Shown here: positions 18,108 to 36,644 of the stretch, in pieces | How positions within the stretch are numbered: the first letter of the stretch is position 1 | Layout: each line of letters starts with the position of its first letter | Assembly: GCA_021300175.1 (NCBI GenBank) | Contig: JAJTIC010000005.1 | Location: 1-39,082, forward strand | From: Pseudomonadota bacterium | GTDB taxonomy: Bacteria; Bdellovibrionota; Bdellovibrionia; Bdellovibrionales; Bdellovibrionaceae | DNA length: 39,082 nucleotides | Direction of reading: 5' to 3' | Program-made: the position numbers and the translations under genes | The notes under the pieces: generated by a model | Seen by the model: only the letters and a program-made list of their open reading frames with translations | What the model was told of the DNA's origin: nothing | The model's database searches: none

Positions 18108-18111
<4 letters not shown>
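17512..18111 (+). CDS. engB: Ribosome biogenesis GTPase EngB (YihA/YsxC)
   Basis: A 199-residue TRAFAC GTPase needed for 50S ribosomal subunit assembly. GTP-binding motifs: G1 GRSNSGKSS at 29-37, G2 region STPGKTRLLNFF, G3 DMPGYGF at 73-79, G4 TKAD at 140-143, G5 CSAKDK near 172. The length is usual. There is no clear ribosome binding site; TATAAA at 17498-17503 is 8 bases before the ATG, so the mRNA may start at or near the start codon, although I see no good -35. It begins a long plus-strand array and overlaps kdsB by 4 bases. Confidence 0.96.
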
Positions 18112-20578
<2,467 letters not shown>

Positions 20579-20587
20579 GGAATTCTT

Positions 20588-21568
20588 ATGAGTTTGAAAA
20601 CCATCGAATTGGCGAAAAGCGTCTTAGATATTGAAGCCCAAGCCGTCTTGCAATTGAAATCTCGAATTGATGAACACTTTCTTAAAGCTGTCGATTTGAT
20701 GCTCGCGACCAAAGGAAAAGTGGTTTTGTGTGGGATTGGAAAATCGGGCCAGATGGCAAGAAAGATTTCTTCCACTCTGTCGTCGACAGGAACTCCCTCG
20801 GTGTTTGTACATCCTGCAGAAAGTGCGCATGGAGATCTTGGAACAATCACTAAAGAAGATCTTGTGATAGCGATTAGCTACGGAGGAGAGTCACCCGAGA
20901 TTGTCCCTCTTTTAACTTATGTAGCTCGCAAAGGAATTCCCTTGATTGCAATGACGGGGAAGACACAGTCCTCTTTGGCAAAAGCCGCACAAGTCGTTTT
21001 AGATATTTCCGTTGCGCGTGAAGCTTGTCCTTTAGAGCTGGCACCGACATCTAGCTCCACAGCGACTTTAGCGATGGGTGATGCACTCGCCATGGCTGTG
21101 ATGGATCGGAAAGGATTTTCTGCAGAAGATTTTGCAGAAAATCATCCTGGAGGCTCCCTTGGATTTCGCTTGTCTCGAGTCCGAGACGTCATGCACACAG
21201 GAGCTGGCTTCGTCGTCGTGACTGAAGAGACTCCGCTCAGGCAAGTGATTTCTAAAATGTCGCAAGCAGAAACTCGTGGGGCTGCCAGCATTGTGGGATC
21301 TCAAGGAGATCTCATTGGAATTATCACCGACGGTGATGTCCGCCGGCGTTTAGAGTCTTCCAGTGATCCTCTGAATGGTGTGGCTAAAGATATGATGACC
21401 AAGTCACCTCGTGCGATTGAAGCTGATGAGCTCGTTGAGAAAGCTCTTTTTCTGATGGAGCAATTTCGCATCAACGTGCTTTTTGTACTTGATAGTGCTG
21501 TTCAAGGTTCAAGAAAACCTGTAGGTGTCGTCCATATTCAAGATTTGCTCAGAAACAAAGTTCGTTAG
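20588..21568 (+). CDS. kdsD: Arabinose-5-phosphate isomerase (KdsD/KpsF)
   Basis: 326 residues. Converts ribulose 5-phosphate to arabinose 5-phosphate, the first committed step to Kdo. An SIS domain at about 30-175 has GIGKSGQMARKISSTLSSTGTPS, HPAESAHGDLG and AISYGGESPEI, ending in ELAPTSSSTATLAMGDALA. The linker FAENHPGGSLGFRL leads into two CBS domains (about 200-260 and 270-326). The architecture and length match KdsD/KpsF closely. It follows pyrG after 9 bases. The next enzyme of the pathway, KdsA, is not encoded in this window. Confidence 0.96.
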   Translation: MSLKTIELAKSVLDIEAQAVLQLKSRIDEHFLKAVDLMLATKGKVVLCGIGKSGQMARKISSTLSSTGTPSVFVHPAESAHGDLGTITKEDLVIAISYGGESPEIVPLLTYVARKGIPLIAMTGKTQSSLAKAAQVVLDISVAREACPLELAPTSSSTATLAMGDALAMAVMDRKGFSAEDFAENHPGGSLGFRLSRVRDVMHTGAGFVVVTEETPLRQVISKMSQAETRGAASIVGSQGDLIGIITDGDVRRRLESSSDPLNGVAKDMMTKSPRAIEADELVEKALFLMEQFRINVLFVLDSAVQGSRKPVGVVHIQDLLRNKVR

Positions 21569-21613
21569 CTCCTGCTGTTTGGCCATTTGGTCTGGGTTCA
21601 TTTGTAGTTTGTT

Positions 21614-22159
21614 GTGAATTTGAAAAAACAAAATCACAATGAAGAAATGACCCTGCAAGTTTCTCAGCTCAAAACAGTCAAAATGCTGGTTCTCGATGTG
21701 GATGGAATCCTGACGGATTGCCGTGTTTGGCTTTCTGATTCCGGAGAATGGCGAAGACGTTTTTCGATTCGTGATGGGGCAGGCATCAAGCTTTTGCAAG
21801 AAGCTGGGTACAAAACCGCGATCATTACAGGTTCAAAAGCTGAAGATATTCGCAAACGAGCAGAGCACCTCAAGATCGATTATTTTTTTGAAGGGGCCTT
21901 AGATAAAGAACCCAGCTTTCAGGAACTTCAAAAGAAATCAGGACTTAAGCCTAATGAGATGGCTTACATGGGCGACGATTACTTTGATGTTCCTGTACTT
22001 TCGTCGGTGGCCTTTGCAGCCACGGTCAGTGATGCCATGGAATCTGCCAAAGAAGTGTGTCACTATGTAGCAGCGCGACCTGCAGGAAACGGGGCTGTGC
22101 GCGAAGTGTGTGAGTTAATTTTAAAGTACGGGGCCTTCGCAAAGGGTAAAGCAACATGA
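21614..22159 (+). CDS. kdsC: 3-deoxy-manno-octulosonate-8-phosphatase
   Basis: 181 residues if started at GTG 21614; ATG 21647 (170 residues) is an equally good start, and neither has a strong ribosome binding site. A HAD-family phosphatase of the small tetrameric C0 type without a cap domain, removing phosphate from Kdo-8-phosphate. Motif I is LDVDGILTD, motif II AIITGSKAE, motif III lysine in GALDKEPSF, motif IV MGDDYFDVPVL. The C-terminal tail AARPAGNGAVREVCELIL is the KdsC signature that covers the neighbouring active site. Its end overlaps the gltA start by 4 bases (ATGA), coupling Kdo synthesis genes to the following envelope machine. Confidence 0.94.
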   Translation: MNLKKQNHNEEMTLQVSQLKTVKMLVLDVDGILTDCRVWLSDSGEWRRRFSIRDGAGIKLLQEAGYKTAIITGSKAEDIRKRAEHLKIDYFFEGALDKEPSFQELQKKSGLKPNEMAYMGDDYFDVPVLSSVAFAATVSDAMESAKEVCHYVAARPAGNGAVREVCELILKYGAFAKGKAT

Positions 22160-22884
22160 AGCAACAACTAGTGAATCTCTCTCTGTGTTTCTCGCTCTCA
22201 ATGATGACTGCGCAAGCATTTGCGGAAGTGATCGAGTTCCCCACAGAAGAGTTGGCGCAGGAGTCTGTTCTCCCTAAATTTGATCGACCCGTGTCAGTTA
22301 AAAACAGAAATGTTGAAACCGCTCAAAAAATTGAGCTCGGTGCTTATTACGGTTGGAATGTGCTTGAGCCCATTTTGAATCCTTCAAAATTTGGTCTGAT
22401 CGGTGCTTATCATCTGAATGAAGATGCGGCCATCAGTTTAAATTTTTCTATGTGGATGAAAGGACTTAACTCGCAGTACACGGATGGGTTGAGCGGAGGA
22501 AGCATCGATCTTGATTTTACAAGGGCGCCACAACTGAAATACTCAGCATATGGGTTTTATGAATGGAAGCTTTTTTACGGAAAAATAAGTGTGACCAAAT
22601 CCGCAGTGACCAACACACACATTTATCCCATGCTGGGAGCGGGTGTGACTTCTTATGAAAATAAGACTTATCCGGGCATTGCCGGTGGAGTAGGCCAGAA
22701 GTTCTATTTTGGAAAGGCTTTGGCTTTACGAATTGACTTCAGATATCAGTATGGGCAACAACCGTCTCCATTTCAAAGAGGGGTGATGGGAAACTCAAAT
22801 ACAACAAGACCTTCCAAGTCTTCGTTCCAAGATAAATGGGCTCTGTCAAATCACTTGGAATTTGGCGTGAGTTATTTGTTCTAG
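22156..22884 (+). CDS. gltA: GltA-like outer membrane beta-barrel protein
   Basis: 242 residues with a signal peptide (about 1-23, ending AQAFA). The mature protein has alternating strands (AYYGWNVLEPIL, AAISLNFSMWM, KLFYGKISV, LALRIDFRYQYG) and ends in Phe (GVSYLF), the usual BAM-recognised end of an outer membrane barrel. It resembles the barrel family that accompanies the Glt/Nfs machines of Myxococcus. Synteny with the following gltB-G and aglRQS genes supports naming it GltA; which of the two barrel genes is GltA and which GltB is by order only. It is linked to kdsC by a 4-base overlap. Confidence 0.7.
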   Translation: MKQQLVNLSLCFSLSMMTAQAFAEVIEFPTEELAQESVLPKFDRPVSVKNRNVETAQKIELGAYYGWNVLEPILNPSKFGLIGAYHLNEDAAISLNFSMWMKGLNSQYTDGLSGGSIDLDFTRAPQLKYSAYGFYEWKLFYGKISVTKSAVTNTHIYPMLGAGVTSYENKTYPGIAGGVGQKFYFGKALALRIDFRYQYGQQPSPFQRGVMGNSNTTRPSKSSFQDKWALSNHLEFGVSYLF

Positions 22885-22973
22885 TCCTTTGAAGAGTCTA
22901 GTTTCCGACTCGTAAGATACAAGTCCTTAGAAAAATTAGATATTTTTAAATAAGCAACATCATGAGGTCTTGC

Positions 22974-23807
22974 ATGCTAGAGCTTCGTCGATTCTCTTTG
23001 TGGATATTTTTAGTGATCGTGAATTTTTCGGTGTCGTCTTGGGCCCAGTCCGCCGACGATTCCATATTACCGCCAGAAGCCAATTCAGAACTAGATATCA
23101 TCGAGCAAGAGCTTGAAAAGAATCGAACTCCTCAGCCAGCACCCCTGATTGAAGGACCTCAAGCAGATAATAAGCTAGAAAACTTCACAGGACTTGGGAC
23201 GCTCGCGCCCTTCAGTGAAATCTCAGTGATTCAAAAAAGATTTTTGCCCAAGACAGGGCGCTTTCAAGCGTATGGGTCCTTTGCCAATGTGGTGAATGAT
23301 CCTTGGTTTATGGGAATCGGAGTCAGTGGACGTCTTGCCTATTATTTTACGGAAGCGTGGGGCGTTGAAGCCACAGGAAGCTTTCTTTCAAATTCAGAGA
23401 GGCAATCAGCAAAAGATTTGTATGAAGAGCATCGAGTTCGTCCGGATTCCTTTATTCATGCTAAGAGCTATATGGGACTTGCGGCCATTTGGACACCGAT
23501 TTACGGGAAGACAACTTTGTTCAATCAGCGAATCATTCCATTTGATATGTATTTCACCGCAGGAGCGGGAAGTTCTGCTTTAGATGGCGGAACGGGCGGA
23601 AGTACCATTCACACAGGGACAGGGCAAATTTATGCCATCAACAAGTCCATGGGTTTTCGCTGGGATTTGAGCTGGAATTTTATTCGTGCTCGGGCAACCC
23701 CGAAATCTGATTCTGGTGAAGGAAAACCTGGATCTGAAGGCTATTACAACAATTTAATTCTCAGTGCTGGGATCAGTTGGTTCTTCCCAGAAGCGAAATA
23801 CAGGTGA
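22974..23807 (+). CDS. gltB: GltB-like outer membrane beta-barrel protein
   Basis: 277 residues from ATG 22974, chosen because GAGGT lies 6 bases upstream; an in-frame ATG at 22962 has no such site. A signal peptide (to about SSWAQS, 21-26) is followed by an acidic Pro-rich linker, then a barrel domain from about 75 with GRFQAYGSFANVVNDPWFMGIGVSGRLAYYFTEAWGVEATGSF, typical of the myxobacterial outer membrane barrel family. It ends with the strand LILSAGISWFF. A 77-89-base AT-rich gap separates it from gltA and may hold a promoter. It is predicted to form the outer membrane part of the Glt-type complex with GltA. Confidence 0.7.
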   Translation: MLELRRFSLWIFLVIVNFSVSSWAQSADDSILPPEANSELDIIEQELEKNRTPQPAPLIEGPQADNKLENFTGLGTLAPFSEISVIQKRFLPKTGRFQAYGSFANVVNDPWFMGIGVSGRLAYYFTEAWGVEATGSFLSNSERQSAKDLYEEHRVRPDSFIHAKSYMGLAAIWTPIYGKTTLFNQRIIPFDMYFTAGAGSSALDGGTGGSTIHTGTGQIYAINKSMGFRWDLSWNFIRARATPKSDSGEGKPGSEGYYNNLILSAGISWFFPEAKYR

Positions 23808-23815
23808 GGTGCTGG

Positions 23816-25435
23816 ATGAGATCATCTAAATTACTTCTTGGATGTCTTCTGTTGCTCAGTCTTGCAAGCTCGGCTCAGTCTCAAAGAAAAGCAGCGCCAA
23901 ATGCTGCGAAGAAAGCGCCTACTAAACCTGCTGTCAGTGCCCCAGCCAATCGAGCTCCCGTGGCACAGAGGAAAGGTCCTCAAAATCGAGCGGCGGCTCA
24001 GCTTTCTGAAGCGCTGTCACTCGCGCGCTCTGGGGCCTATGACCGAGCGAGCGTGATGCTTTATCGCTTGTCGAGAAATCCAGAGCTTGCAGCGCAACGC
24101 CAGCAGATTAAGTACTTGCTGGGTGTTTCTTTGATGGAGCAAAAATATTACCAAGTTGCTGCATTTCAATTTGTGGATGTGATTCGTAATGGGGAATCCA
24201 AATACACCAAGCAATCCATCGAAAAATTGTCTTTGGTGGCAGATGCTCTCGGTGATGACAGTCTTTTGAATTATGCCATTTCACGAGTTCGTTTAGATGA
24301 TTTCCCTGAAAAGTACAAAGACATGGTTTACTTTCGACTTGGGGAAATTAAGCTGAAAAACAAAGCTTATGCTGAAGCCGTGCAGAGTTTTGCTCGAGTG
24401 CCAGCTTCCAGTAAGTATTATTCCCAAGCTCTTTATAATAGAGGCCTTGCGCATCTTGAAGCCAATCAGACATCGGAAGCGCAAAAAGTTTTTGAACAAC
24501 TTTTGTCAAATAGAACTAACTCTGGCGTGACCGACACCAATCGAGTGGCAGCACAAATGGCGTTAGCGAGAACTTTCTATCAAGCCCAAAATTGGGATGG
24601 TTCGATTGAAGCTTATCGGCAAGTGCCGAGGGATCATGAGTTCTGGCACGATGCGCTTTTTGAACAAAGCTGGGCTTACCTTAGGGCTGCAAAGTTTCGA
24701 AGTGCTCTTTCAAATTTTCAATCCTTGCACTCTACGTTCTATGAAGATCATTATTTGCCGGAATCTCTTTTACTTCGTTCTATCGTGTTTCTTTACATTT
24801 GTAAGTATGACGAAATGGAAAAGGTTCTCGATCTTTTTGAGAGAAGTTATGGAAGTATTCGTTCGAAACTGGGCACAAAGCTCAGCTCAGTCAAGGATCC
24901 CATCGAGTACTATCAAGAACTTGAAAAAGCGCTTCAGTTTAAAATAGGCAAAAGTGATAAGAGCCAACTGAAAACTCCTTACGCTGTTTTGAGATATATC
25001 CTGGGTCAAGGGGATGTGAAGCGATCGATGACTTATCTGAAAACACTGGGTGATGAGAAGCAAAAAATGGAATCCAATCCCACTTTCAGCCGATCGGCGC
25101 TCTTATCTTACGCGCAAAAGATCCTGAACAATCGAATGAAAAATACTCGAATTGCCATTGGAGAAATGTCTAAAGGACATATGGCAACTGTTCGAGCAGA
25201 GCTACGAGATCTTTACGAGCAAGCTGGATTTGTGAGATATGAAATGATCAATGGTCGTAAAGAAACACTGAAGAAGAAGATCGCTGGTAAAGACATTCCC
25301 ACAGATCAAATTGATGAAAACGTAAAGCGAGATTTCTTTGTTCAAAATGGGTACGAATACTACCCGTTCCAAGGTGAATATTGGTTGGATGAAGTCGGAA
25401 ATTATCATTATTTAGGAAAACAATCTTGTGAGTAG
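23816..25435 (+). CDS. gltC: GltC-like periplasmic TPR protein
   Basis: 539 residues from ATG 23816 (GAGGTG upstream); a TTG at 23777 would extend it into gltB and spoil the signal peptide. A signal peptide covers about 1-22 and an Ala/Pro/Lys-rich stretch about 23-55. Tetratricopeptide-type helical repeats run from about 60 to 340 (for example AYAEAVQSFARVPASSKYY, SQALYNRGLAHLEANQT, WDGSIEAYRQVP). The C-terminal third (about 400-539) is charged and helical without clear repeats. In the Glt model, GltC links barrel proteins to periplasmic partners. Its stop overlaps the possible upstream GTG of gltD. Confidence 0.72.
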   Translation: MRSSKLLLGCLLLLSLASSAQSQRKAAPNAAKKAPTKPAVSAPANRAPVAQRKGPQNRAAAQLSEALSLARSGAYDRASVMLYRLSRNPELAAQRQQIKYLLGVSLMEQKYYQVAAFQFVDVIRNGESKYTKQSIEKLSLVADALGDDSLLNYAISRVRLDDFPEKYKDMVYFRLGEIKLKNKAYAEAVQSFARVPASSKYYSQALYNRGLAHLEANQTSEAQKVFEQLLSNRTNSGVTDTNRVAAQMALARTFYQAQNWDGSIEAYRQVPRDHEFWHDALFEQSWAYLRAAKFRSALSNFQSLHSTFYEDHYLPESLLLRSIVFLYICKYDEMEKVLDLFERSYGSIRSKLGTKLSSVKDPIEYYQELEKALQFKIGKSDKSQLKTPYAVLRYILGQGDVKRSMTYLKTLGDEKQKMESNPTFSRSALLSYAQKILNNRMKNTRIAIGEMSKGHMATVRAELRDLYEQAGFVRYEMINGRKETLKKKIAGKDIPTDQIDENVKRDFFVQNGYEYYPFQGEYWLDEVGNYHYLGKQSCE

Positions 25436-25439
25436 AAAT

Positions 25440-28400
25440 ATGAAACACTTAATATTAGCAGCCCTTCTTGCCCCAAGTCTGGCGCTGATGTCAGAAGTTT
25501 ATGCTCAGCCTAAAAAACAAGCTTCTCAAGGGAAAAAAACCATCGGTGAACTTCTGAAGCAAGCTGATCGAGGTGCCGGTATGTCTTTGGGTGAAAAACG
25601 AGGCATTTCGCTCCCAGGGGGCTCTGCCGAGCCCACGAGTCGCCCTCGAACCAAGGTCGAATTGAATCAAGTGAAACCACCAAGAACTTCCTCATTTTTC
25701 GAGGACGCGTCTTCAGACCAAGCAAAACTTGAGAAGATTACAGACCAGCAAATCAATGAACTGTTTAAACTCACACAGAAGTTTAGAAATTCTCCCCAAA
25801 GAGGAGAGCTTTGGTTGCGCCTTGCGGAGCTTTATGTGGAAAAAGCAGGAGTGATCGACTTTCGCAAGCAAGGGGAGTTCGATCAGAAGCTTCGTGATTT
25901 TCAAGAAGGACGAAGTACAGTCAAACCGAAACTTGACTTAAGAGATGCTAAAGAATTCAATAAAAAAGCGATTCAACTTTATGAATGGTTTCTCAGAGAC
26001 TTTCCTCAAGATGAAAAAACTGATCAAGCTTTGTTTTTTTTAGGCTATAACAATTTTGAAATTGGAGAGCTCAAAAAAGGCACCCAGTATTACTCAAGAC
26101 TGACAAAAGAATTTCCACGGTCACCTTATGTGGTTGAAGCTAACTTTGCTTTGGGTGAGTACTACTTTGAAAATGAAAAATGGAGTGAGGCCCTTAAATC
26201 CTACCGAGAAGTATTAAAAAATCGCAGACATCGTCTTTTCACATTCTCACTTTACAAAGCAGCTTGGTGCGAATTCAGAAGTGGAAATACCGAGAGGGCT
26301 CTCAAGACCATGGAGCTTTTAGTTAAATCGAGTAAAGAAGCAAGTGCGCAGGCCGCAGCTGGTCGCAAGATATTAAACAAAAATCGCTTGGAATCAGAGG
26401 GTTTACGAGACATTGTCTTGTTTTATGCAGAAGTTGGAAATCCTGAACAAGCTCCTGCATACTTTGTCAACTTGGCTGGTAATGATTCAAAAAACTACCT
26501 CGAGAAGCTTGCTTATTACTATGGTGATAAAGGAAATTTGCTTGGGGCAAGAACTGTCTTCAATTATTTGATCAAAGAAGATCCCACAAATCCTAAAGCC
26601 TTTGATTTTAAGTACCAAGTAGTGCGTTTGTACTCAAATGCTCGACGGAGTCGTGAATTTCGTGATGAAATGTTCGCTTGGATCAGAGATTTTGGGGCTG
26701 GCAGCTCTTGGTATCAGGCTAACAAAGGAAACTCGGAACTGGTTGAAAGTTCGGTCCGATTGAGAGAAACAACTTTGAGGAACTATGTTCTGCAGCAGCA
26801 TCAAACTGCTCAGAACTCTCGAGCTGCATTCTCTCAAGGCCTTGCAGTTGAGGGATATCGTCTCTATTTAGGTGAATTTAAGACTTCTCCCAGCATCGCA
26901 GATATGCGGTTTTACTTTGGGGAACTGCTCTACGATATGAAGAGATACGATGATGCCAGTGCCCAATATCGCTGGGTGGTCGAAAACGGGCAAGGCAGTA
27001 AGTTTCAGTTGCAAGCAGCAGAAAATATCGTGATTGCTTTAGAAAAAGACTTACCGAAGGACGAACAGATTGCCGCTAAAGTGGGAAAAACTTTGGACCC
27101 CGTGGCTTTTGATCCTAAAGTTTCTCGATTTGTGGAAACTTCGCTCTGGTACATCAACAAATTCCCGAGCTCTGAAAAGATCGTGGAAATGCAGTTTAGA
27201 ATTGGCCGGCTCCACTATCAACACAACCAATTTGATCAAGCGATTCCCTATTTCCGAGAGATCGTTCAAAAGCACCCACGAACAAAATACGCAGAGTACT
27301 CCGCCAACTTGTTGCTGGATATCTACAACCTTCGTAAGGACTATGAGGGCCTGGCGAAAGCAGGAAATGAGCTTCTTGCATTGCCTGGAATCTCATCCTC
27401 TAAAGCAGGAGGGGATATTCGTGATGTTCTTGAAAAAGCTTCCTTTAAGAGAGCACAGGATATGGAAGTTTCTAAAGATTATGCAGGCTCGGCAGCACAG
27501 TTTGAAGCTTTCTCGAAACAAAACCCATCTTCTCCATTAGCGACTTCAGCCATCTTCAATGCAGCAATTAATTTCGAAAGAGCTGGTCAGAATAGTCAGG
27601 CGATTCGTTCCCACGAAGCCGTATTGGCTTCGAAAGCCAAACCAGCTGAAGCTCTGAAACCAAAATCACGTCGAATTCTTGCTAAACTAAAGCAAGATTC
27701 AGGTCGTTTAGAGGAAGCAGCTCAGCTTTACAGAGCTTCTGCCGTCGAGAGTAAAAATGATCCACTGGCACCGAATATGTACTTTAATGCAGCGATCCTG
27801 TTTGAAGCTTTAGGAAGAAACAGAGAAGCGATCCAAAACTATCGGTCTTTCTTTGATCTGAATAAAAAAGCGGACCGAGTTGATGCTATTTTTCAAATCG
27901 CAACTCTCCATCGAAAAGACGGGCAGTGGACTGTGGCCGTTGAAAAGTATGAAGAGTACTTGCAATTAGGAGCAAGGGATCAGGAAAGAGTCGTTGAAGC
28001 CTCTTACTGGGTTTATGAAGGAAGTCGTCGCTTAGGAAGAAAGAAAGCTGCCGATGAGTGGCAAGGTAAAACTTTAGCGACTCAAAAAAGGTTTGCTCCT
28101 AACCGTAAAGGCGCAGGAGCTCTTTACGCTGCCAGAATTCGTATGAGTCAAGCTCGAGAACAGTTTGAAGATCTAAAGAAAGTTAAAATTCCTGCAAAGC
28201 CCTCTGAGCAGCAAAGAGCGGTCCAGAAGAAAATCGCACTCGTGACCGAACTCAATGGCGCACTCACTGATGTTGTAAAGTTTGATGCCCCTGAGGAGAT
28301 AGTCTCTGCACTTTCTGTTCTTGGTCAGGTGAACATCCATATGTTTGAGGCTCTGATCGGCGCACCTGTGCCTTCAGGGCTCACTGAGGAACAAAAGAAG

Positions 28401-28616
28401 CAGTATCAAGAAGGAGTGGCCAAGATTGCAGATCCCTTTTTGCAAAAGGGGAAAGAAAGTTTGCGCGCCTCCCTAGTGAGGGCCTCGGAGCTGGATGCTT
28501 ACCCACAAGATTACTTTCAGGCACGAACAATTTTAGCTCGTATTGATTCTACTTCAGTTTATGAGCATGGTGAACAAGCCGCTGAAGTGAAGTTTGGCAG
28601 CTGGATGGGGTTATAA
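25440..28616 (+). CDS. gltD: GltD/AgmU-like large periplasmic TPR protein
   Basis: 1058 residues from ATG 25440; an in-frame GTG at 25428 (overlapping gltC) is possible and adds four residues. A signal peptide (HLILAALLAPSLALMSEVYAQ) is followed by a linker (about 25-95), then many TPR-like repeats over nearly the whole length, for example ALFFLGYNNFEIGELKKGTQYYSRLTKEFP, VEANFALGEYYFENEKWSEALKSYREVL, AIPYFREIVQKHP and AIQNYRSFFDLNKK. The length and composition match AgmU/GltD, the large periplasmic scaffold of the Myxococcus machine. No catalytic motif is seen. It is followed after 2 bases by gltE. Confidence 0.76.
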   Translation: MKHLILAALLAPSLALMSEVYAQPKKQASQGKKTIGELLKQADRGAGMSLGEKRGISLPGGSAEPTSRPRTKVELNQVKPPRTSSFFEDASSDQAKLEKITDQQINELFKLTQKFRNSPQRGELWLRLAELYVEKAGVIDFRKQGEFDQKLRDFQEGRSTVKPKLDLRDAKEFNKKAIQLYEWFLRDFPQDEKTDQALFFLGYNNFEIGELKKGTQYYSRLTKEFPRSPYVVEANFALGEYYFENEKWSEALKSYREVLKNRRHRLFTFSLYKAAWCEFRSGNTERALKTMELLVKSSKEASAQAAAGRKILNKNRLESEGLRDIVLFYAEVGNPEQAPAYFVNLAGNDSKNYLEKLAYYYGDKGNLLGARTVFNYLIKEDPTNPKAFDFKYQVVRLYSNARRSREFRDEMFAWIRDFGAGSSWYQANKGNSELVESSVRLRETTLRNYVLQQHQTAQNSRAAFSQGLAVEGYRLYLGEFKTSPSIADMRFYFGELLYDMKRYDDASAQYRWVVENGQGSKFQLQAAENIVIALEKDLPKDEQIAAKVGKTLDPVAFDPKVSRFVETSLWYINKFPSSEKIVEMQFRIGRLHYQHNQFDQAIPYFREIVQKHPRTKYAEYSANLLLDIYNLRKDYEGLAKAGNELLALPGISSSKAGGDIRDVLEKASFKRAQDMEVSKDYAGSAAQFEAFSKQNPSSPLATSAIFNAAINFERAGQNSQAIRSHEAVLASKAKPAEALKPKSRRILAKLKQDSGRLEEAAQLYRASAVESKNDPLAPNMYFNAAILFEALGRNREAIQNYRSFFDLNKKADRVDAIFQIATLHRKDGQWTVAVEKYEEYLQLGARDQERVVEASYWVYEGSRRLGRKKAADEWQGKTLATQKRFAPNRKGAGALYAARIRMSQAREQFEDLKKVKIPAKPSEQQRAVQKKIALVTELNGALTDVVKFDAPEEIVSALSVLGQVNIHMFEALIGAPVPSGLTEEQKKQYQEGVAKIADPFLQKGKESLRASLVRASELDAYPQDYFQARTILARIDSTSVYEHGEQAAEVKFGSWMGL

Positions 28617-28618
28617 TA

Positions 28619-29452
28619 ATGAAAAAGAAAATCACAATATTTCTCTTTCTTGGATTAATCAGTGGCTGCGGAAGCACACCGAAGCAAGAGGTCAGTGAAT
28701 CCATCGATCTTACTCCAGCAGCTCAAGACTCATTGGTTTCAGTCCCGACGACAACAGCTCAGCCTCCCCGTTCAGCACCGGCGCCAGTCGCTCAAAATCC
28801 TCTGACGGATGCCATTAAGTCAGGAAGTGACGAACAGATTTTCAGAGCTGCCACAGAAATTCTTTCAAGTAGTCCGCAAGATCTCAAAGCTTTGAACGCC
28901 ATGGGACTTTACCATTACAGAAAATCACAGTTTCAAGCCGCACTCTTTTTCTTTTCTCGAGGATTGAAGACAGCTCCTAATTCATCAGATCTTTACAACA
29001 ATATTGGCCTGGCTCACTTGGGGTTGGGTGATAAAAGAGAAGCAATTCTCGCTTTTAGAAAAGCCATTGAACTCAATCCTAATGATGCCAATGCCGCGGC
29101 AAATTTGGGGTTCATCTATCTTCAGGATAAAGACCATGTAAAAGCAAAAGTGGCTTTTGAAATGGCGATGAAAAAGCACAGCAAAGATCCACGAGTTCTG
29201 ACGAATTACGGTGTGGCGCTTGCGGCAGCAAGAGATTTTTCAAGCGCAGAAAAGCAGTACCAAGAGGCCTTAAAGCTGAATAGTAACTTCCAACCAGCGA
29301 TGCTGAATCTCGCGATTCTTTATGTTGATCACCAGAAAGAGTTCGACAAAGGTCTAGCTCTCATCAACAAGATGAAGTTCTTAGGACTTTCGTCTGAATC
29401 TAGGTCACTAATTAATGCATTGGAAAATAAAGCAAAAGCTGGTGTAAAATAG
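28619..29452 (+). CDS. gltE: GltE-like TPR lipoprotein
   Basis: 277 residues with a lipoprotein signal peptide ending in LISGC (acylated C17) and a Ser/Pro/Gln-rich linker (about 20-65). Well-formed TPRs run from about 75 to 250: AMGLYHYRKSQFQAALFFFSRGLKTAPN, LYNNIGLAHLGLGDKREAILAFRKAIELNPN, AAANLGFIYLQDKDHVKAKVAFEMAMKKH, and NYGVALAAARDFSSAEKQYQEALKLNSN. Residue 2-3 after Cys is Gly-Ser, so outer membrane sorting is likely under the E. coli rule. It is predicted to hold the periplasmic GltD scaffold to the outer membrane. The start lies 2 bases after gltD. Confidence 0.74.
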   Translation: MKKKITIFLFLGLISGCGSTPKQEVSESIDLTPAAQDSLVSVPTTTAQPPRSAPAPVAQNPLTDAIKSGSDEQIFRAATEILSSSPQDLKALNAMGLYHYRKSQFQAALFFFSRGLKTAPNSSDLYNNIGLAHLGLGDKREAILAFRKAIELNPNDANAAANLGFIYLQDKDHVKAKVAFEMAMKKHSKDPRVLTNYGVALAAARDFSSAEKQYQEALKLNSNFQPAMLNLAILYVDHQKEFDKGLALINKMKFLGLSSESRSLINALENKAKAGVK

Positions 29453-29468
29453 GAACTGAGGTTTCATC

Positions 29469-29750
29469 ATGAAGTTTGCAGCAGTGATTTTCGCAGCATG
29501 GATGTTTTCTTTCTCGAGTAACGCTTTTGCGCAAAATGCACAGAGTGCTGCTGCACCAGGTAAAGAGAGAAAACAAACTTTGAGTTTTGAAGATGAACTT
29601 GTGGAGGGTTCGACCCAAAAGCCTGAACTCTTTTACCTTTTTCAGAAAAAGAACTTCAACTATAAAAGACTGATTCGATTAAGAGAAAATTTTCTTCCTG
29701 AGATGAGAAGAACATCAGAAGATATTCAGCGCAGCCGGAGTTCGAATTGA
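29469..29750 (+). CDS. gltF: GltF-like small exported protein
   Basis: 93 residues with a clear signal peptide (about 1-22, ending SNAFA). The mature part of about 70 residues holds the block LSFEDELVEGSTQKPELFYLFQKKNFNYKRLIRLRENFLPEMR, which looks conserved-type rather than random: charged, amphipathic, with aromatic residues. I cannot assign a domain. The name rests on place in the cluster between gltE and gltG and on small size. Its stop overlaps the start of gltG by 4 bases (TTGA), so the two are translationally coupled. Confidence 0.55.
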   Translation: MKFAAVIFAAWMFSFSSNAFAQNAQSAAAPGKERKQTLSFEDELVEGSTQKPELFYLFQKKNFNYKRLIRLRENFLPEMRRTSEDIQRSRSSN

Positions 29751-31762
29751 AATCGCCAATAATTCTCAGAGTTTTTAAAGGCCAACAGCTAGTCGAAGTC
29801 AAACAGTTCGACAAGGATCAAGTCATCTTTGGGCATGATGCTGAAGTTCAGGTGGAATTGAAGGATGAATCCGTATCCCCAATTCATTGTCTGATTGAAC
29901 TCAGGGGTTCAGGCTACTACTTGTGTGATTTGGGATCTGCATCTGGCACTCGTAAAAATGGAAAGCCAGTTCTTGATGAACCGTTGTCTTCGGGAGAGTA
30001 CATCGAAATCGGACCGTTTCGAATTCAGTTCTTCGTGGGAGTGCCGAAGCCAAAAGAAGCTCCACAGACAGCTGCGACGATTGTCGTGAAGCCGCCTGTC
30101 GAAGCGCCGCCTCCCGTGAAAGCAGAGCCTCCTCAAGTTGTAAAACCCGTGGTCGTTGCTCCTGCTGCCCCCAAAATTCCAGAGCAAAAAACGAGCTCTC
30201 AAAGGCCCGTCAAGAAGTCAAAGCATGAGAAAACATTTGCTCCACCGAGCGAGATTAGAAATCTTAGAGATCATTTGCGTCCGACCAAAGGACCTGTGAT
30301 TGAAGTCATCGTGGCTTGGCAAGAGAGAGTTCTGACCACTTCTCACTTCACTTCTGAAGAAGTGATCACGATTGGCTCAGATGCGAAAGCGGATCTTCAG
30401 ATTCCTTCGCAGTTTTTGCGTGGCCTTCAGCCCTTTATTGAAACAAAAGGTGGAGCCCGAGTACTTGCAGGAATTGAGATGCAAGTGGAAGTTGTAAATT
30501 CTGCCCAGCAGATCTTGAGCCAGGAAGAACTTCTTCGTGTCGGCAAAGCAAATCGAGCAGGTTCTGGCGTATCTGTCAGATTAGATCAAGGCGAGATCAT
30601 TTGCCTTTCTATTGCACAGGGCACCGTGCAAATTTTTGTAAGGAACGTGGCGGCAGCCAATAAACCTCTGATGGCACCGCCGTTGGATCTGAGCTCTGGC
30701 GAGCTCACGGGTTTGGTGGTCGCACTGATGATTGTGGCACTCACAGCTCTTTATATGAGCGTTTACAATCCTCCAGAAATGGCGGAGCAAGAGCCAGAAG
30801 AAGTCGTGAGACTGGCGGAATTTGTTTACAACAAGCCACCCACCCCTGTGATTGAGCAACCTCAGCCGAAACCTGAGCCCACCACGCAAGAGATGGAACA
30901 GAAAACCCCGCCAACCACAGTCCCTGTTCGTGTTCAAGTCACAGACAAGGAGAAGCAAGCGGTGGCCAAAGGGCAGAAAGATTCCATGAATGCTGTGCGC
31001 GAAACAGAAGCTGCGAAAGCTGCGGAGGTCAGGCCTCGTCCTTCGAAAGTGGATCGTCCCAAAAAGTTTACATCAGTCAAGCAGGGCGGAGCTACTAAAG
31101 TGGGTGACACTGCCGGCGCCAACGCTCAAAGCAAAGATGTGAATAATGAAGGACTCTTGGCTGCTTTTGGTGGCGGAGGAATTCGTAAGCAATTGGATCA
31201 AGCGTATTCAGGATCTGGTGAATTGCTCGGAATGGCCAATGAAGCAACAGGCCGTTCTGGACAGAATGAATCTCGCCCTGGTGATGATATTGGATCCAAA
31301 TTTAAGGATACAGGCGCCGGAGGAAAAGGCACAGCGACCCAAGGAATTGCAGGCGTTGGCACCAAAGGCCGGGCCTCTGGAATGTCCAGTTATGGTGGCG
31401 GTGTAGGACTGGGTGGCAAAGGCTCAGTGACCATTGTTCCGGGGGGAGCTGATGAAGGCTGGGTTGGCTCGATTGACAGGGAAGCTGTTCGCCGAGTGAT
31501 TCGCTCGATCTTGAATCAAATCAAAAGCTGTTATGAGAGACAACTCAGAGTGAATTCAACTCTTGAGGGTAAAGTAATTATTCAGTTTGAAATTGCAGAG
31601 CAAGGACGTGTTCGCTCTGCAAAAACGAAGTCAACTTCACTCAATGATTCAACCGTTGAATCATGTGTGGCTTCACGCATTCGTGAAGCCAGATTTCCTG
31701 AGCCACCCTCAGGAACCATCGCAGTCGTTGATTTCCCATTTGTATTTGGAGCTCAAAAGTAA
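29747..31762 (+). CDS. gltG: GltG-like FHA/TonB-type inner membrane protein
   Basis: 671 residues from TTG 29747. Cytoplasmic half: FHA domain at about 5-92 with SVSPIH and SASGTRKNG, but GH in place of the usual GR, so phosphothreonine binding may be weakened; a Pro/Val-rich linker (about 105-165); a second FHA-like fold (about 180-310, VITIGSDAKADLQIP). One membrane segment at about 323-343. Periplasmic half: Pro/Glu/Gln-rich TonB-like stretch (about 350-400), a Gly-rich linker (about 460-555) and the AgmX/PglI-type C-terminal domain (about 573-671; IRSILNQIKSCYERQL ... LEGKVIIQFEIAEQGRVRSA). It is predicted to carry stator force from AglRQS through the periplasm. Confidence 0.82.
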   Translation: MKSPIILRVFKGQQLVEVKQFDKDQVIFGHDAEVQVELKDESVSPIHCLIELRGSGYYLCDLGSASGTRKNGKPVLDEPLSSGEYIEIGPFRIQFFVGVPKPKEAPQTAATIVVKPPVEAPPPVKAEPPQVVKPVVVAPAAPKIPEQKTSSQRPVKKSKHEKTFAPPSEIRNLRDHLRPTKGPVIEVIVAWQERVLTTSHFTSEEVITIGSDAKADLQIPSQFLRGLQPFIETKGGARVLAGIEMQVEVVNSAQQILSQEELLRVGKANRAGSGVSVRLDQGEIICLSIAQGTVQIFVRNVAAANKPLMAPPLDLSSGELTGLVVALMIVALTALYMSVYNPPEMAEQEPEEVVRLAEFVYNKPPTPVIEQPQPKPEPTTQEMEQKTPPTTVPVRVQVTDKEKQAVAKGQKDSMNAVRETEAAKAAEVRPRPSKVDRPKKFTSVKQGGATKVGDTAGANAQSKDVNNEGLLAAFGGGGIRKQLDQAYSGSGELLGMANEATGRSGQNESRPGDDIGSKFKDTGAGGKGTATQGIAGVGTKGRASGMSSYGGGVGLGGKGSVTIVPGGADEGWVGSIDREAVRRVIRSILNQIKSCYERQLRVNSTLEGKVIIQFEIAEQGRVRSAKTKSTSLNDSTVESCVASRIREARFPEPPSGTIAVVDFPFVFGAQK

Positions 31763-31778
31763 AGTCAGGGAGGACTAA

Positions 31779-32441
31779 GTGGAACCAACAGTGAACGACA
31801 GCATGCCTTTTTTGCAGAGAGCCTTTATCGAAGGTGGGCCCGTGATGTACATCATTTTGTTCATCGGGATCATCACACTTTTCTTAGTGATCGAAAGATT
31901 CTTGAAAATGCGAGAACTTTCTGTGGATAAGAAAGATTTTATGGATGGAATTACAGCGGCCATCATGCGTGGAGATTTACGCCAAGCGATTGCGGCCTGT
32001 GATGCAAAGCCAGCTCCGCTCACTTTGACGGTGAAGGCGGGCCTTGTGCAAGTGATGAACAAACGACCTGATGAAGAAGTTCAAGTGGCCATGGATGCAG
32101 CCGTTCTTCGTGAAACACCAAAAATTGAAGGTTGGACATCTTTCTTGGCGGTGACCGGCAATATCGCTGTTCTTGCGGGTCTATTGGGAACCATCATCGG
32201 TATGATTGGTTCATTCCGAGCAGTTTCTGCGGCAGATCCTGCTGAAAAAGCAGCGAAACTTTCGGAAGGTATTTCGCATGCTCTGAACTGTACAGCTTTC
32301 GGTCTCCTGGTGGCGATCATTGCAATCGTCGCTTATGGATACTTCCAGTTGAGAATCCAAAGAGCAGAAAATGAGCTGCATGAGACATCAATGACTCTTC
32401 TGAACTTGGTTGTTTCTAACAGAGATAAATTAAAGGAATAG
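31779..32441 (+). CDS. aglR: AglR-like MotA/TolQ/ExbB proton channel subunit
   Basis: 220 residues from GTG 31779, with AGGGAGGA just upstream. TolQ/ExbB family: membrane segments at about 22-40, 121-146 and 168-190; a cytoplasmic domain lies between the first two. The family signature VLAGLLGTIIGMIGSF at 131-146 and EGISHALNCTAFGLLVAI at 163-180 are present. With the two ExbD-like proteins downstream it should form a proton-driven stator that powers the Glt complex, as AglR-AglQ-AglS do in Myxococcus. TolQ or ExbB of a transport system is the alternative, but the neighbours favour AglR. Confidence 0.86.
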   Translation: MEPTVNDSMPFLQRAFIEGGPVMYIILFIGIITLFLVIERFLKMRELSVDKKDFMDGITAAIMRGDLRQAIAACDAKPAPLTLTVKAGLVQVMNKRPDEEVQVAMDAAVLRETPKIEGWTSFLAVTGNIAVLAGLLGTIIGMIGSFRAVSAADPAEKAAKLSEGISHALNCTAFGLLVAIIAIVAYGYFQLRIQRAENELHETSMTLLNLVVSNRDKLKE

Positions 32442-32444
32442 ATC

Positions 32445-32918
32445 ATGGCACAAATTGAATCCGGCGGTGGAGGAGGAAGAAGAGTGAGCGTAGAGCTCAA
32501 CCTCGTGCCGTTCATCGATTTGATGAGCGTTCTCATCACGTTTTTGTTGATCACAGCCGTTTGGACTCAAGTTTCTATGATCCAGATTGGAACATCTCTT
32601 TACGGAAAGAGATCTGAAGAGACTGTGCCTCAGCTTCCTCCTGACGCTGACTTGGTCTTGAAGATTGATATCACCGACAAAGGATATGTTCTGACAGTGG
32701 GGCGCCAGACAACGCAGCTGCCTCTTCTTAACAGTGAATACGATGAAGCGGGTTTGCTGGCGCAGCTTGAAAAGACAAAACAAATGTATCCTACGAAAAC
32801 AGACGCTGCGATTGCAATGTCTGATGAGCTTCCCTATGAACGTTTGATTGGTGGGATGGATGTTTTGCTCAAAGCTGGCTTTCCGAAAATTTCAGTGCTC
32901 ACTGGAGGGCCTAAGTAA
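32445..32918 (+). CDS. aglQ: AglQ-like ExbD/TolR stator subunit
   Basis: 157 residues. A short Gly-rich cytoplasmic N-terminus, then NLVPFIDLMSVLITFLLITAVW, in which D25 in the membrane segment (about 24-40) is the proton-carrying residue of the ExbD/TolR family. The periplasmic domain (about 60-157) ends with YERLIGGMDVLLKAGFPKISVLTGG, the usual TolR end. Gap to aglR is 3 bases and its stop shares one base with the aglS start. Two different ExbD-like proteins after one TolQ-like protein is the Agl arrangement. Which one is AglQ and which is AglS is by order only. Confidence 0.84.
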   Translation: MAQIESGGGGGRRVSVELNLVPFIDLMSVLITFLLITAVWTQVSMIQIGTSLYGKRSEETVPQLPPDADLVLKIDITDKGYVLTVGRQTTQLPLLNSEYDEAGLLAQLEKTKQMYPTKTDAAIAMSDELPYERLIGGMDVLLKAGFPKISVLTGGPK

Positions 32919-33499
32919 TGGCAATTCATCAGCCGGGTGTTAAATTTCGTAGGAGTCGTTTGCTGAAGAAAAACAAAGGCAAAAGAGATGTGGTTGCGAT
33001 CTTGTCTCTGACTGCAATGGTTGATATGTTCACCGTTCTCGTGATCTTCTTGCTTCAAAATTACAATGTGACAGGTCAAGTTCTCTATCTTCCGAAAGAA
33101 GTGACTCTTCCAAGAGCTGAGCAAATTAAAGAGCTGGCGCCTTCTGTCGTCGTGACGATTTCAAGCAAAGAAGTTTTGATCGATAAAACGCCCATCGTTC
33201 CGATGGAACAGCTGAAAGCCCAGGCAGATTGGATGATTCAGCCATTGTATCAGCAGGTTCGGGAGGCATTGAATAATGCCAAAATAGAATTTGATCAGAA
33301 CGTGCAGACTCGTTTACAAAAAGCCGTCGAGAATGCGCGGGGCGAAATGGATCAGGATCCCCTCGCTTGGAACAAAGTGACAATTCAGGCAGACAAAGGA
33401 ATTGATTTTCTCACTGTTAAAAAAGTGATGTTCACCGTGAGTGAGGCTGGCGCTCGAGAAATCAATTTTGCCGTCACAAAAGAACGTAGTTCCCAGTAA
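32918..33499 (+). CDS. aglS: AglS-like ExbD/TolR stator subunit
   Basis: 193 residues from ATG 32918, with GGAGG upstream inside the end of aglQ. A basic N-terminus (KFRRSRLLKKNKGKR) precedes ILSLTAMVDMFTVLVIFLLQNYNV with the family aspartate at D36. The periplasmic part (about 55-193) is longer than in TolR: after the standard strand VVVTISSKEVLIDKTPIV comes a helical insert of about 40 residues (LYQQVREALNNAKIEFDQNVQTRLQKAVENARGE), then WNKVTIQADKGIDFLTVKKVMFTVSEAGAREINFAV. The insert may contact GltG or peptidoglycan. lptC-like gene follows after 21 bases. Confidence 0.84.
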   Translation: MAIHQPGVKFRRSRLLKKNKGKRDVVAILSLTAMVDMFTVLVIFLLQNYNVTGQVLYLPKEVTLPRAEQIKELAPSVVVTISSKEVLIDKTPIVPMEQLKAQADWMIQPLYQQVREALNNAKIEFDQNVQTRLQKAVENARGEMDQDPLAWNKVTIQADKGIDFLTVKKVMFTVSEAGAREINFAVTKERSSQ

Positions 33500-33520
33500 G
33501 AATTCAGGTATAATCAGTCT

Positions 33521-34483
33521 ATGCAGAAAGTGACAACTCTCATCTTTCTTTTGATGGTTGGGGTGCTATTTTTTCAGGTTCTGGTGGGCTTTCCCGTACG
33601 TTTGGAGAATCCGCTGGATGATATTGTCAGGACAGAGTCTTTGTTTGCAGGGGATAACTCAGCCCATCAGAAGATGAAAGGTGTTCATCTGGTTGAAAGT
33701 AATTCTGGAGAACGGGATTGGGAACTCTTTGCAGAATTAGCTGAAGGCTATGAAGGAAAAGGTTCCTGGCTTCTCAAAAATGTCAGAGTTCTTTTTTATA
33801 ACGACGAAATAGTGGATTTTACCGTCACCGGAGAGTCAGGATCGATCGATTCAAAAACGAAAGACATGACCATCCAAGGTGATGTGAGAACTCAGTCTTC
33901 GAACGGTTATAGGTTTGAGACGCCCTCAATGCAGTACCGAGCTAAGTCTCGAATTCTGCTTTCTCCGGACAAAGTTAAAATGACAGGTCCCCCCGATGTC
34001 CGAGGGGGAGCTCTGTTCCTTGAAGGAGAGCGAATGGAAGCTCAAGTGGATGAGTCACTCATGACCATTGAATCTGGTGTTTTAGCAAAAAAGTCACTTG
34101 TCGGTGGGCGTCGGTTCAAGATTCGCTCTGAAAAAGCAGAGTTTTCAGGAAAAAGCAAGGCCGCAAGATTTTTCAATCAAGTGTCCATTGAGATCGACAG
34201 TATGAAATTAGAAGGGCCTGAAGCGGCTTTTAGTTACAAAGATAGCACTGATTTTCTGCAGTCAATTATGGTTCGTGGGGGAGTCAAAGTGAGTGATGTG
34301 GATAAATATGCCACTGCCGAAAACGTCAGATTTGATCCGAGCGAGAACAAGTTTGTTTTCTCGGGGCAGCCACGGGTGGTGCAGAACAGTGATGAGATCG
34401 TTGGAGATCAAATTGTGTTTATTGATGGTGGAAAACGAGTTAAAGTTGAAAATATTCGAGCGAAAGTAGAGAAAAAAGAATGA
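33521..34483 (+). CDS. LptC-LptA type fused LPS bridge protein
   Basis: 320 residues. One N-terminal membrane segment (about 5-25), then an LptC-type beta-jellyroll (about 55-185; [60 protein letters not shown]). A second jellyroll-like part (about 190-318) follows with LptA/OstA features: [47 protein letters not shown] and the terminal [20 protein letters not shown]. LptC alone is about 190 residues and LptA about 185, so one chain seems to do both, carrying LPS from the LptB2FG transporter towards LptDE. It overlaps lptB by 4 bases. No lptF or lptG in the window. Confidence 0.78.
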
Positions 34484-35202
34484 GTTTGTTGTCGGTGAGC
34501 TCCATTTCTAAAGCCTTTAAAAAACGCCAAGTGGTGAAAGATGTTTCATTTACAGTGACATCGGGTCAAGTGGTGGGTCTGTTGGGTCCTAATGGGGCCG
34601 GTAAGACAACCAGTTTTTATATGGTGGTTGGCCTTGTAAAACCTGATTCTGGTGATATTCAAATTGATTCCGAATCTATTGGTCGTCTACCTATGCACAA
34701 ACGGGCGCGAGTGGGCTTAAGTTACCTGGCTCAGGAACCGAGTATTTTTCGTAAGCTGACTGTTGCTGAGAACATCATCGTAGCCCTTGAAGCCCATGGT
34801 TACTCTGATTCAAGATTGAGTGAAAGATTAGAATCACTCTTACAAGACTTTCGTATAACTCACATCCGCGACAGCTACGGTTATGCTCTGTCGGGTGGCG
34901 AGCGAAGGCGTGTCGAAATTGCGAGAGCTCTTGCGGGTTCACCTAAATTTCTACTTCTTGATGAGCCGTTTGCGGGAATCGATCCAATTGCTGTTGCAGA
35001 TATCCAAGAGATCATTAGACAGCTTAAAGCCAAAGGAATTGGTGTTCTTATTACCGATCACAATGTTCGAGAGACATTGGGCATTTGTGACCAGGCTTAC
35101 ATTTTAAAAGATGGGCAGATTCAAGTCCAAGGTACGGCTTCTGAAATTGCAAATTCCGAACTAGCCAAAAAGTTTTATTTAGGCGAAAATTTTAAACTGT
35201 AA
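34480..35202 (+). CDS. lptB: LPS export ATPase LptB
   Basis: 240 residues, the usual length. ABC ATPase that drives extraction of LPS from the inner membrane with LptF and LptG. Walker [11 protein letters not shown] at about 35-44, Q-loop in [19 protein letters not shown] (typical of LptB), signature [15 protein letters not shown], Walker [13 protein letters not shown] and H-loop [10 protein letters not shown]. The motif pattern [22 protein letters not shown] is diagnostic. The ATG overlaps the LptC-LptA gene by 4 bases and rpoN follows after 20 bases, the frequent lptA-lptB-rpoN order. Confidence 0.97.
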
Positions 35203-35222
35203 GGACACACGAGAGGACTTTT

Positions 35223-36644
35223 TTGGCTAAACTCAGTCAGTCGATGAATTTAAGTCAGACATTGCGGATGACTCCGCAGCTGCAGCAAGCCATTAAATTG
35301 CTGCAAATGTCTCGTCTAGAAATGGAAACGCAAGTCCGAAAGGAATTGGACGAGAACCCAATTCTGGAAGAAGCGCAAGAACTCAAAGAAGAAGACCTTC
35401 AGCGGACCAAAGAAGCGGCTGACACTGTCGAAACACCTGCCGAATCTCAAGATCAAGACCCTCAAAAGCACGATGAGTTTGAGTGGGAATCCTATCTTGA
35501 AAACCAACAGAAACCCCCTCAGCAGAACTTTGGCGGCAACGAAGAGATCATGAATTATGAAAATGTGATTTCGACAACGGAATCACTTTATGATCATCTT
35601 CTTTGGCAAGCTAAAATGAATGGCTTTAATGAAGAAGAAATGGTGCAAGCGGAAATCCTCATCAACTACATCGATGATGATGGTTACATCACCACACCTC
35701 TGGAGGAAATTGCTGCCACCGAGTCCACGACCAAAGAGGAGCTCGAGGGGACGTTAAAGTTCATTCACGAATTCGATCCACCAGGAGTGGGAGCTCGCAA
35801 TCTTCAGGAGTGTTTGTTGATTCAAGCTAAGTTCCTCGAGGAAGATACGAATGATCTCGTTCATTTGATCGCTCACCATATCAAGGATCTCGAGAAGAAA
35901 AACTACGAAGGTATCGCAAAAGCCATGGGGCGCGATATCAGGGAAATCGCTGAAATGTGTAAGATCATTTACTCCATGGATCCAAAACCAGGGCGTGCTT
36001 ATGCGCCCGCTGATACACAGTACGTCACTCCTGATGTTTACGTTTACAAAGTGGGTGATGATTATATGGTTTCACTCAATGAGGATGGTCTTCCGAGGCT
36101 TAAGATATCTAACTTCTACAAGAACATGTTGAAGCAATCCGGGAACGAAAAAACCCAAGAGTACATTCAGGAAAAACTGCGTTCCGCAGTTTGGCTGATC
36201 AAGTCGATTCATCAAAGACAAAGAACCATCTACAAAGTGACTGATAGTATTGTTAAGCATCAACGGGATTTTTTTGATAAAGGCGCCGCCTTTATCAAGC
36301 CTATGGTTTTAAGAGATATTGCTGCGGATATAGGGATGCATGAATCTACTGTCAGTCGCGTTACGACCGCGAAGTATGTGCACACTCCCCAAGGAATTTT
36401 CGAGCTGAAGTACTTTTTTAACTCAGGGATCAATACAACAGATGGAGAGTCTTTGGCTTCCGAGTCTGTGAAGTTAAAAATTAAAGAATTGATCGCAAAA
36501 GAAGATCCCAAGAGTCCATACTCAGATCAGCAAATTGTTGAGCTTCTGTTGAAAGACGGGATTGAGATTGCACGCCGAACTGTTGCAAAGTATCGGGATG
36601 TGCTCAAGATTTTACCTTCAAGCCGTCGCAAAAAGATTTTCTAA
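35223..36644 (+). CDS. rpoN: RNA polymerase sigma-54 factor
   Basis: 473 residues from TTG 35223, with AGAGGA upstream. Region I (about 8-48) has SQTLRMTPQLQQAIKLLQMSRLEM, the Gln-rich activator-response region. An acidic region II (about 50-110) follows. The core-binding part has LYDHLLWQAKMNGF and DDDGYITTPLEEIA. The helix-turn-helix DIAADIGMHESTVSRVTTAKYVHTPQGIFELKYFF comes before the RpoN box ARRTVAKYRD at 450-459, which reads the -24 element. It directs transcription from -24/-12 promoters and needs AAA+ activators such as 16081-17349. Its stop overlaps the end of potD by 4 bases. Confidence 0.97.
   Translation: MAKLSQSMNLSQTLRMTPQLQQAIKLLQMSRLEMETQVRKELDENPILEEAQELKEEDLQRTKEAADTVETPAESQDQDPQKHDEFEWESYLENQQKPPQQNFGGNEEIMNYENVISTTESLYDHLLWQAKMNGFNEEEMVQAEILINYIDDDGYITTPLEEIAATESTTKEELEGTLKFIHEFDPPGVGARNLQECLLIQAKFLEEDTNDLVHLIAHHIKDLEKKNYEGIAKAMGRDIREIAEMCKIIYSMDPKPGRAYAPADTQYVTPDVYVYKVGDDYMVSLNEDGLPRLKISNFYKNMLKQSGNEKTQEYIQEKLRSAVWLIKSIHQRQRTIYKVTDSIVKHQRDFFDKGAAFIKPMVLRDIAADIGMHESTVSRVTTAKYVHTPQGIFELKYFFNSGINTTDGESLASESVKLKIKELIAKEDPKSPYSDQQIVELLLKDGIEIARRTVAKYRDVLKILPSSRRKKIF

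Follow-up and report, generated by a model that had tools for sequence, protein, structure and literature searches.

Which machine is encoded by the ten adjacent plus-strand genes at positions 22156-33499 of contig JAJTIC010000005.1, and how did these genes come to lie within an operon for lipopolysaccharide (LPS) synthesis and export? The window, by which we mean the whole stretch of 39,082 nucleotides (nt) from a Bdellovibrionaceae bacterium (assembly GCA_021300175.1), is contig C51 of a Bdellovibrionales metagenome-assembled genome (MAG), a 2.45-Mb assembly of 150 contigs that is 93.5% complete. We consider it likely that the locus encodes an Agl/Glt trans-envelope machine of the Myxococcus kind, orthologous to Bd0828-Bd0838 of Bdellovibrio bacteriovorus HD100, that its foremost uses would be surface gliding and prey attachment, and that the block probably moved into a kds-lpt-rpoN operon. 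A single locus with glt and agl genes together has been known since 2011, when Luciano et al. named Bd0828-0838, one cluster of both gene sets that lacks gltH, I, J, and K, the leading candidate for the gliding apparatus of Bdellovibrio (PMC3169522).

Ten genes for an envelope complex and its motor

The Glt/Agl block consists of two barrel genes, gltC to gltG, and aglR-aglQ-aglS, as follows.

22156..22884, plus strand: barrel 1 (GltA/GltB type), 242 amino acids; TIGR04565, 88 bits
22962..23807, plus strand: barrel 2 (GltB/GltA type), 281 amino acids; TIGR04565, 94 bits
23777..25435, plus strand: gltC, exported TPR protein; NF033756, 199 bits, residues 46-551
25428..28616, plus strand: gltD, large exported TPR protein, 1062 amino acids; TPR families
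28619..29452, plus strand: gltE, TPR lipoprotein, lipobox ISGC; NF033758, 57 bits (cut-off 225)
29469..29750, plus strand: gltF, small exported protein, 93 amino acids; orthologue alignment
29747..31762, plus strand: gltG; NF033760, 257 bits; NF033768, 106 bits; FHA, 49 bits
31779..32441, plus strand: aglR, TolQ/ExbB-like subunit; PF01618, 96 bits
32445..32918, plus strand: aglQ, ExbD/TolR-like subunit; PF02472, 60 bits
32918..33499, plus strand: aglS, second ExbD/TolR-like subunit; PF02472, 48 bits

All of the parts named in the original prediction, an earlier reading of the DNA letters, are thus present as ten adjacent genes. Its assignment to a Glt/Agl-type machine is borne out by profile searches, which matched GltC and GltG, each along the greater part of the protein, to Myxococcus models and placed both barrels above the curated TIGR04565 cut-off of 60 bits. 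GltC, which probably begins at the ATG at 23816 that precedes a signal peptide, matched NF033756 over nearly its full length, and its paralogues in the same genome scored only 114 and 57 bits; the corresponding scores of the GltG paralogues were 145 and 138 bits. GltG begins with an FHA domain, followed by a single membrane span and a periplasmic linker, and ends in a TonB-like AgmX/PglI domain with two Cys residues that are invariant in the alignment. A PDB search with GltG returned FHA domains only and no solved GltG. A contig scan for GltG relatives found Bdellovibrionales loci only, the named relatives closest to the window were mostly Bdellovibrio MAGs, and no plasmid-borne relatives were found. 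One locus (L029, CALQIT020000007.1), titled a Streptomyces griseus MAG, is a typical Bdellovibrionales glt locus, and its name looks wrong.

GltD, GltE, and GltF were identified by position, domain, and orthology. The gltD orthologues occupy the same position throughout the class Bdellovibrionia. The gltF frame is shorter than 100 amino acids and was therefore missing from the first list of open reading frames (ORFs); the C-terminal half of its product is conserved among 18 aligned orthologues, no Pfam family matched it, and its structure model is helical with low confidence. Barrel 1 has a signal peptide, a conserved disordered segment, and then a small barrel. Its AlphaFold model (pLDDT 82.8, residues 19-42 disordered) gave Foldseek matches to OmpA, OprF, and OmpW. 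The motif ELA.ESVLP.FD is kept in the disordered stretch in an alignment of 18 orthologues, and this segment could be a TonB-box-like contact, of the sort that the Myxococcus authors put forward for GltA/B (PMC5349195).

The stator comprises one MotA/ExbB-type and two ExbD-type proteins. In the alignments, both channel Thr residues are conserved in AglR, the membrane Asp of AglQ (D25) is in register with the TolR/ExbD Asp, and the membrane Asp of AglS is likewise conserved. An orphan AglR-like subunit is encoded elsewhere in the window genome (L045:8282-8977, G000:C32); it is 42% identical to the AglR of the window, and no ExbD-like partner was seen nearby.

Orthology with HD100 and the paralogous clusters

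Genome G036, a single contig of 3,782,950 bases, we take to be the HD100 chromosome. The window proteins match its 0.78-Mb locus gene for gene, and four strong GltG-type tails were found in it, at 0.39, 0.79, 1.40, and 2.28 Mb. These positions agree with the expected places of the four HD100 clusters, Bd0412-0420, Bd0828-0838, Bd1473-1483, and Bd2368-2377 (PMC2797640). The rpoN gene of HD100 is bd0843 (PMC3464611), which stands five tags past aglS (Bd0838), as synteny predicts. On the combined grounds of the gene-for-gene match, the tail positions, and the place of rpoN, we assign the window locus as the orthologue of Bd0828-Bd0838. The two loci agree in all ten genes, in gene order, and in what flanks them (kdsC upstream; lptC, lptB, and rpoN downstream), with 42-85% identity over aligned parts. 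They differ in that the window organism belongs to another genus and has three Glt clusters where HD100 has four.

The two further clusters of the window genome are orthologues of Bd1473-1483 (contigs C63 and C101) and of Bd2368-2377 (C137 and C26), and no Bd0412-type cluster was found in this assembly, given its completeness. Both have stator, GltD, GltG-tail, barrel, and GltC types as the window locus does, but their proteins are only about 20-45% identical to those of the window, and their GltG-type proteins, of 376-494 amino acids, have no match to the N-terminal FHA part. The original prediction saw no GltH, GltI, GltJ, GltK, AglZ, MglA, or MglB, which is correct for the locus, but MglA is encoded on another contig (C45:1603-2196), with 81% identity to MglA of G036 and the same neighbors. 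No Roadblock (MglB) protein was found in the window genome, and MglB is likewise reported absent for Bdellovibrio (PMC3983030). No GltJ-length protein other than GltG occurred among the tail-domain matches of the genome; no genome-wide search was made for GltH, GltI, or GltK.

The block is nested in an LPS operon

The block has the following host operon on either side; both parts are conserved in orthologous loci.

18108..22159, plus strand: upstream part, kdsB, pyrG, kdsD, kdsC
33521..36644, plus strand: downstream part, lptC, lptB, rpoN

From kdsB to rpoN, 17 genes run in one direction (18108-36644) in the order kdsB, pyrG, kdsD, kdsC, barrel 1, barrel 2, gltC, gltD, gltE, gltF, gltG, aglR, aglQ, aglS, lptC, lptB, rpoN. 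The gaps between neighbors are short (-31 to +77 nt), which makes a single transcription unit plausible, and the end of kdsC shares 4 nt with the start of barrel 1. The lptC product (33521-34483) matches PF06835 and PF03968 and so has an extra LptA/LptD-N domain; no separate lptA is present within the operon.

Forty-five further loci of the class Bdellovibrionia, counted after two duplicates were taken out, keep the ten-gene order, with gltE sometimes fused to gltD and a few loci truncated where the contig stops. Because the same ten genes recur in the same order across the sampled genomes of the class, chance is excluded as the source of the set. Same-strand kds/pyrG genes lie upstream in 39 of the 45 loci and lptC lies downstream in 39, so that throughout most of the class the block is nested between kdsC and lptC of a kds-lpt-rpoN operon. 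The apparent gltD-gltE fusion, a single ORF of about 1,280-1,300 amino acids, occurs in families f4 and f5 (L072, L076, L084, L085, L087, and L135).

Loci of sister classes within the phylum largely share the order barrel-gltC-gltD-(gltE)-gltF-gltG, but their gltG has no motor genes next to it on its own strand, and any motor genes seen in the vicinity are encoded on the opposite one; some of these clusters are smaller, with a single barrel. Two genomes of the sister classes have kdsB-pyrG-kdsC-lptC-lptB-rpoN as an unbroken series in which kdsC either overlaps lptC or stands 3 nt from it, and the kdsD-kdsC-lptC junction of Escherichia coli is of the same kind, with a 4-nt overlap. In these two genomes, the unbroken kdsC-lptC junction is seen at L161 and L162, and the glt cluster lies elsewhere, at L130 and L131, with the motor not alongside. 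The single-locus form looks derived, because glt and motor genes are separate in the sister classes and the operon of two genomes there lacks the block. This suggests that glt and agl probably came together, and entered the kdsC-lptC junction as one block, in the common ancestor of the Bdellovibrionia, and that, having moved into this operon, the block is probably cotranscribed with the genes for LPS synthesis and export. The class-wide nesting may be new, as no paper noting it was found within an incomplete coverage of the literature.

A GYF-GYF-PilZ gene accompanies the locus in other families

Between aglS and lptC, 14 of 20 loci outside the family of the window (seven families) have a GYF-GYF-PilZ gene in convergent orientation, mostly 60 nt or less from aglS (L072, L073, L075, L076, L078-L082, L084-L087, and L133). 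Same-strand ORFs in this gap in other families look noncoding, the real gene being the convergent one. Two sister-class genomes encode a GYF-PilZ protein directly after gltG (L124:12914-13804 and L125:5386-6204). In the family of the window the gene is not at the locus, and a clear orthologue is found unlinked:

C26:37718-38392, window genome (G000): GYF-GYF-PilZ orthologue, 198 bits
1,910,576-1,911,244, G036: GYF-GYF-PilZ orthologue, 177 bits

A guess that the latter is Bd1996 was not confirmed in papers. The window genome also encodes a second GYF-PilZ protein, upstream of aglR in its Bd1473-type cluster (L044:8373-8981). PilZ domains commonly bind cyclic di-GMP (c-di-GMP). This raises the possibility, which we put forward tentatively from gene neighborhood, that the GYF-GYF-PilZ protein is an unrecognized conserved partner of the Bd0828-type machine that would couple c-di-GMP to the Agl motor. 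Its association with glt/agl may be new. Hobley et al. (2012, PMC3271064) considered Bd1482, encoded by the 5'-terminal PilZ gene of one HD100 gliding operon, a candidate receptor for gliding control, and the link between c-di-GMP and gliding has been shown physiologically via Bd0367 (PMC3271064); no receptor is known for the Bd0828-type cluster.

What the machine may do

The locus resembles the Agl-Glt system of Myxococcus xanthus (clusters G1, G2, and M1) in its barrels, in its GltC, D, E, F, G and AglR, Q, S types, and in the order gltD-E-F-G (PMC3169522). It differs in having motor and envelope genes joined, in lacking GltH, I, J, and K at the locus, and in the MglB not found in its genome. 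The joining of motor and envelope parts in one locus, which the original prediction had pointed out, is confirmed, though it is the arrangement already published for HD100. By analogy with the work on Myxococcus, proton flow through AglR-AglQ-AglS would drive GltG, whose TonB-like C terminus would cross the peptidoglycan to the outer membrane barrels; GltC, GltD, GltE, and GltF would transmit force through the periplasm, and the moving outer membrane complex would grip a surface or prey. In Myxococcus, the AglQ substitution D28N stops both gliding and spore coat transport (PMC3858216). An HD100 mutant with a transposon in Bd0838 (aglS) is defective in attaching to, killing, and rounding its prey, and Bd0836, a reported c-di-GMP binder, is listed as required for predation (Duncan et al., 2019, PMC6561027). 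A role in gliding or in attachment to prey is argued from HD100 and Myxococcus.

Several points weigh against this reading. The scores of GltC (199 bits) and GltG (257 bits) are below the equivalog cut-offs of 450 for NF033756 and 650 for GltG, and GltH, I, J, and K, all of which are essential for Myxococcus gliding, are absent from the locus. The stator tree contains no Myxococcus sequence, and in the window organism the machine is known from genes alone. Which of the four HD100 clusters is the gliding one is unsettled: proteomics links Bd2368-2377 to exit and Bd0411-0421 to the early bdelloplast phase (PMC12546842), and a review of 2026 terms the Bdellovibrio gliding machinery unidentified (PMC13104615).

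A different use of the same parts, to which we give a distinctly smaller probability, would be that of the Nfs spore coat complex of Myxococcus: the motor would move or pack a surface polymer such as LPS, capsule, or slime instead of the cell. Nfs has the same envelope parts and, energized by AglRQS, moves spore coat polymer (PMC3858216); the window locus differs from it in having its own motor and no sporulation context. A polymer role would explain the placement inside an LPS operon, and this context, which holds for most of the class, keeps the idea in play, as does the lack of GltH, I, J, and K at the locus. However, the operon already has LptC and LptB for LPS export, and the Bd0838 insertion affects prey attachment, although an LPS defect or polarity on lptC, lptB, and rpoN could also cause that phenotype. 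It is very improbable that the genes form an ordinary Tol-Pal or TonB-Exb energizer with extra envelope proteins unrelated to gliding. The stator does share the fold family, and a PDB search with AglR gave TolQ and ExbB as best matches, with no solved AglR. But AglR scored 82 bits against the TolQ equivalog, whose cut-off is 221, and the genome holds its own TolQ, which passes that cut-off with 234 bits. In a maximum-likelihood tree, AglR grouped with Glt-locus and paralogous Agl-type stators, and a separate group (support 97/95) held the TolQ of the window genome, E. coli TolQ and ExbB, and two ExbB-like proteins. A Tol or Exb identity of the stator, one of the two results that together would have refuted the original prediction, is contradicted by this tree. 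The composition of one TolQ-like and two ExbD-like subunits, the model matches of GltC and GltG, and the absence of tolA, tolB, and pal from the locus also weigh against such an energizer.

The original prediction further saw in the locus a minimal, perhaps ancestral form of the Myxococcus machine, which we now think improbable. In its favor, the core genes stand in one place, as they do in Gammaproteobacteria and Geobacter (PMC3169522). In the same paper, Luciano et al. proposed gltC, D, E, G and aglR, Q, S as the ancestral core. The word minimal does not suit a genome with two further Glt clusters and an MglA, and the single-barrel clusters of sister classes are smaller still. Ancestral fares no better, given glt clusters without a motor alongside and the two uninterrupted kds-lpt-rpoN operons in those classes.

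An Agl/Glt machine for gliding and prey attachment is thus the reading that we prefer. As a candidate for the gliding motor the locus is very well conserved: almost all of the Bdellovibrionales genomes sampled have it, complete with its own motor, and in most of them it lies within the LPS operon. The nesting predicts coregulation with LPS assembly and cautions that a transposon insertion in this operon may have polar effects on lptC, lptB, and rpoN. The GYF-GYF-PilZ neighbor provides a concrete gene to examine for the control of gliding by c-di-GMP.

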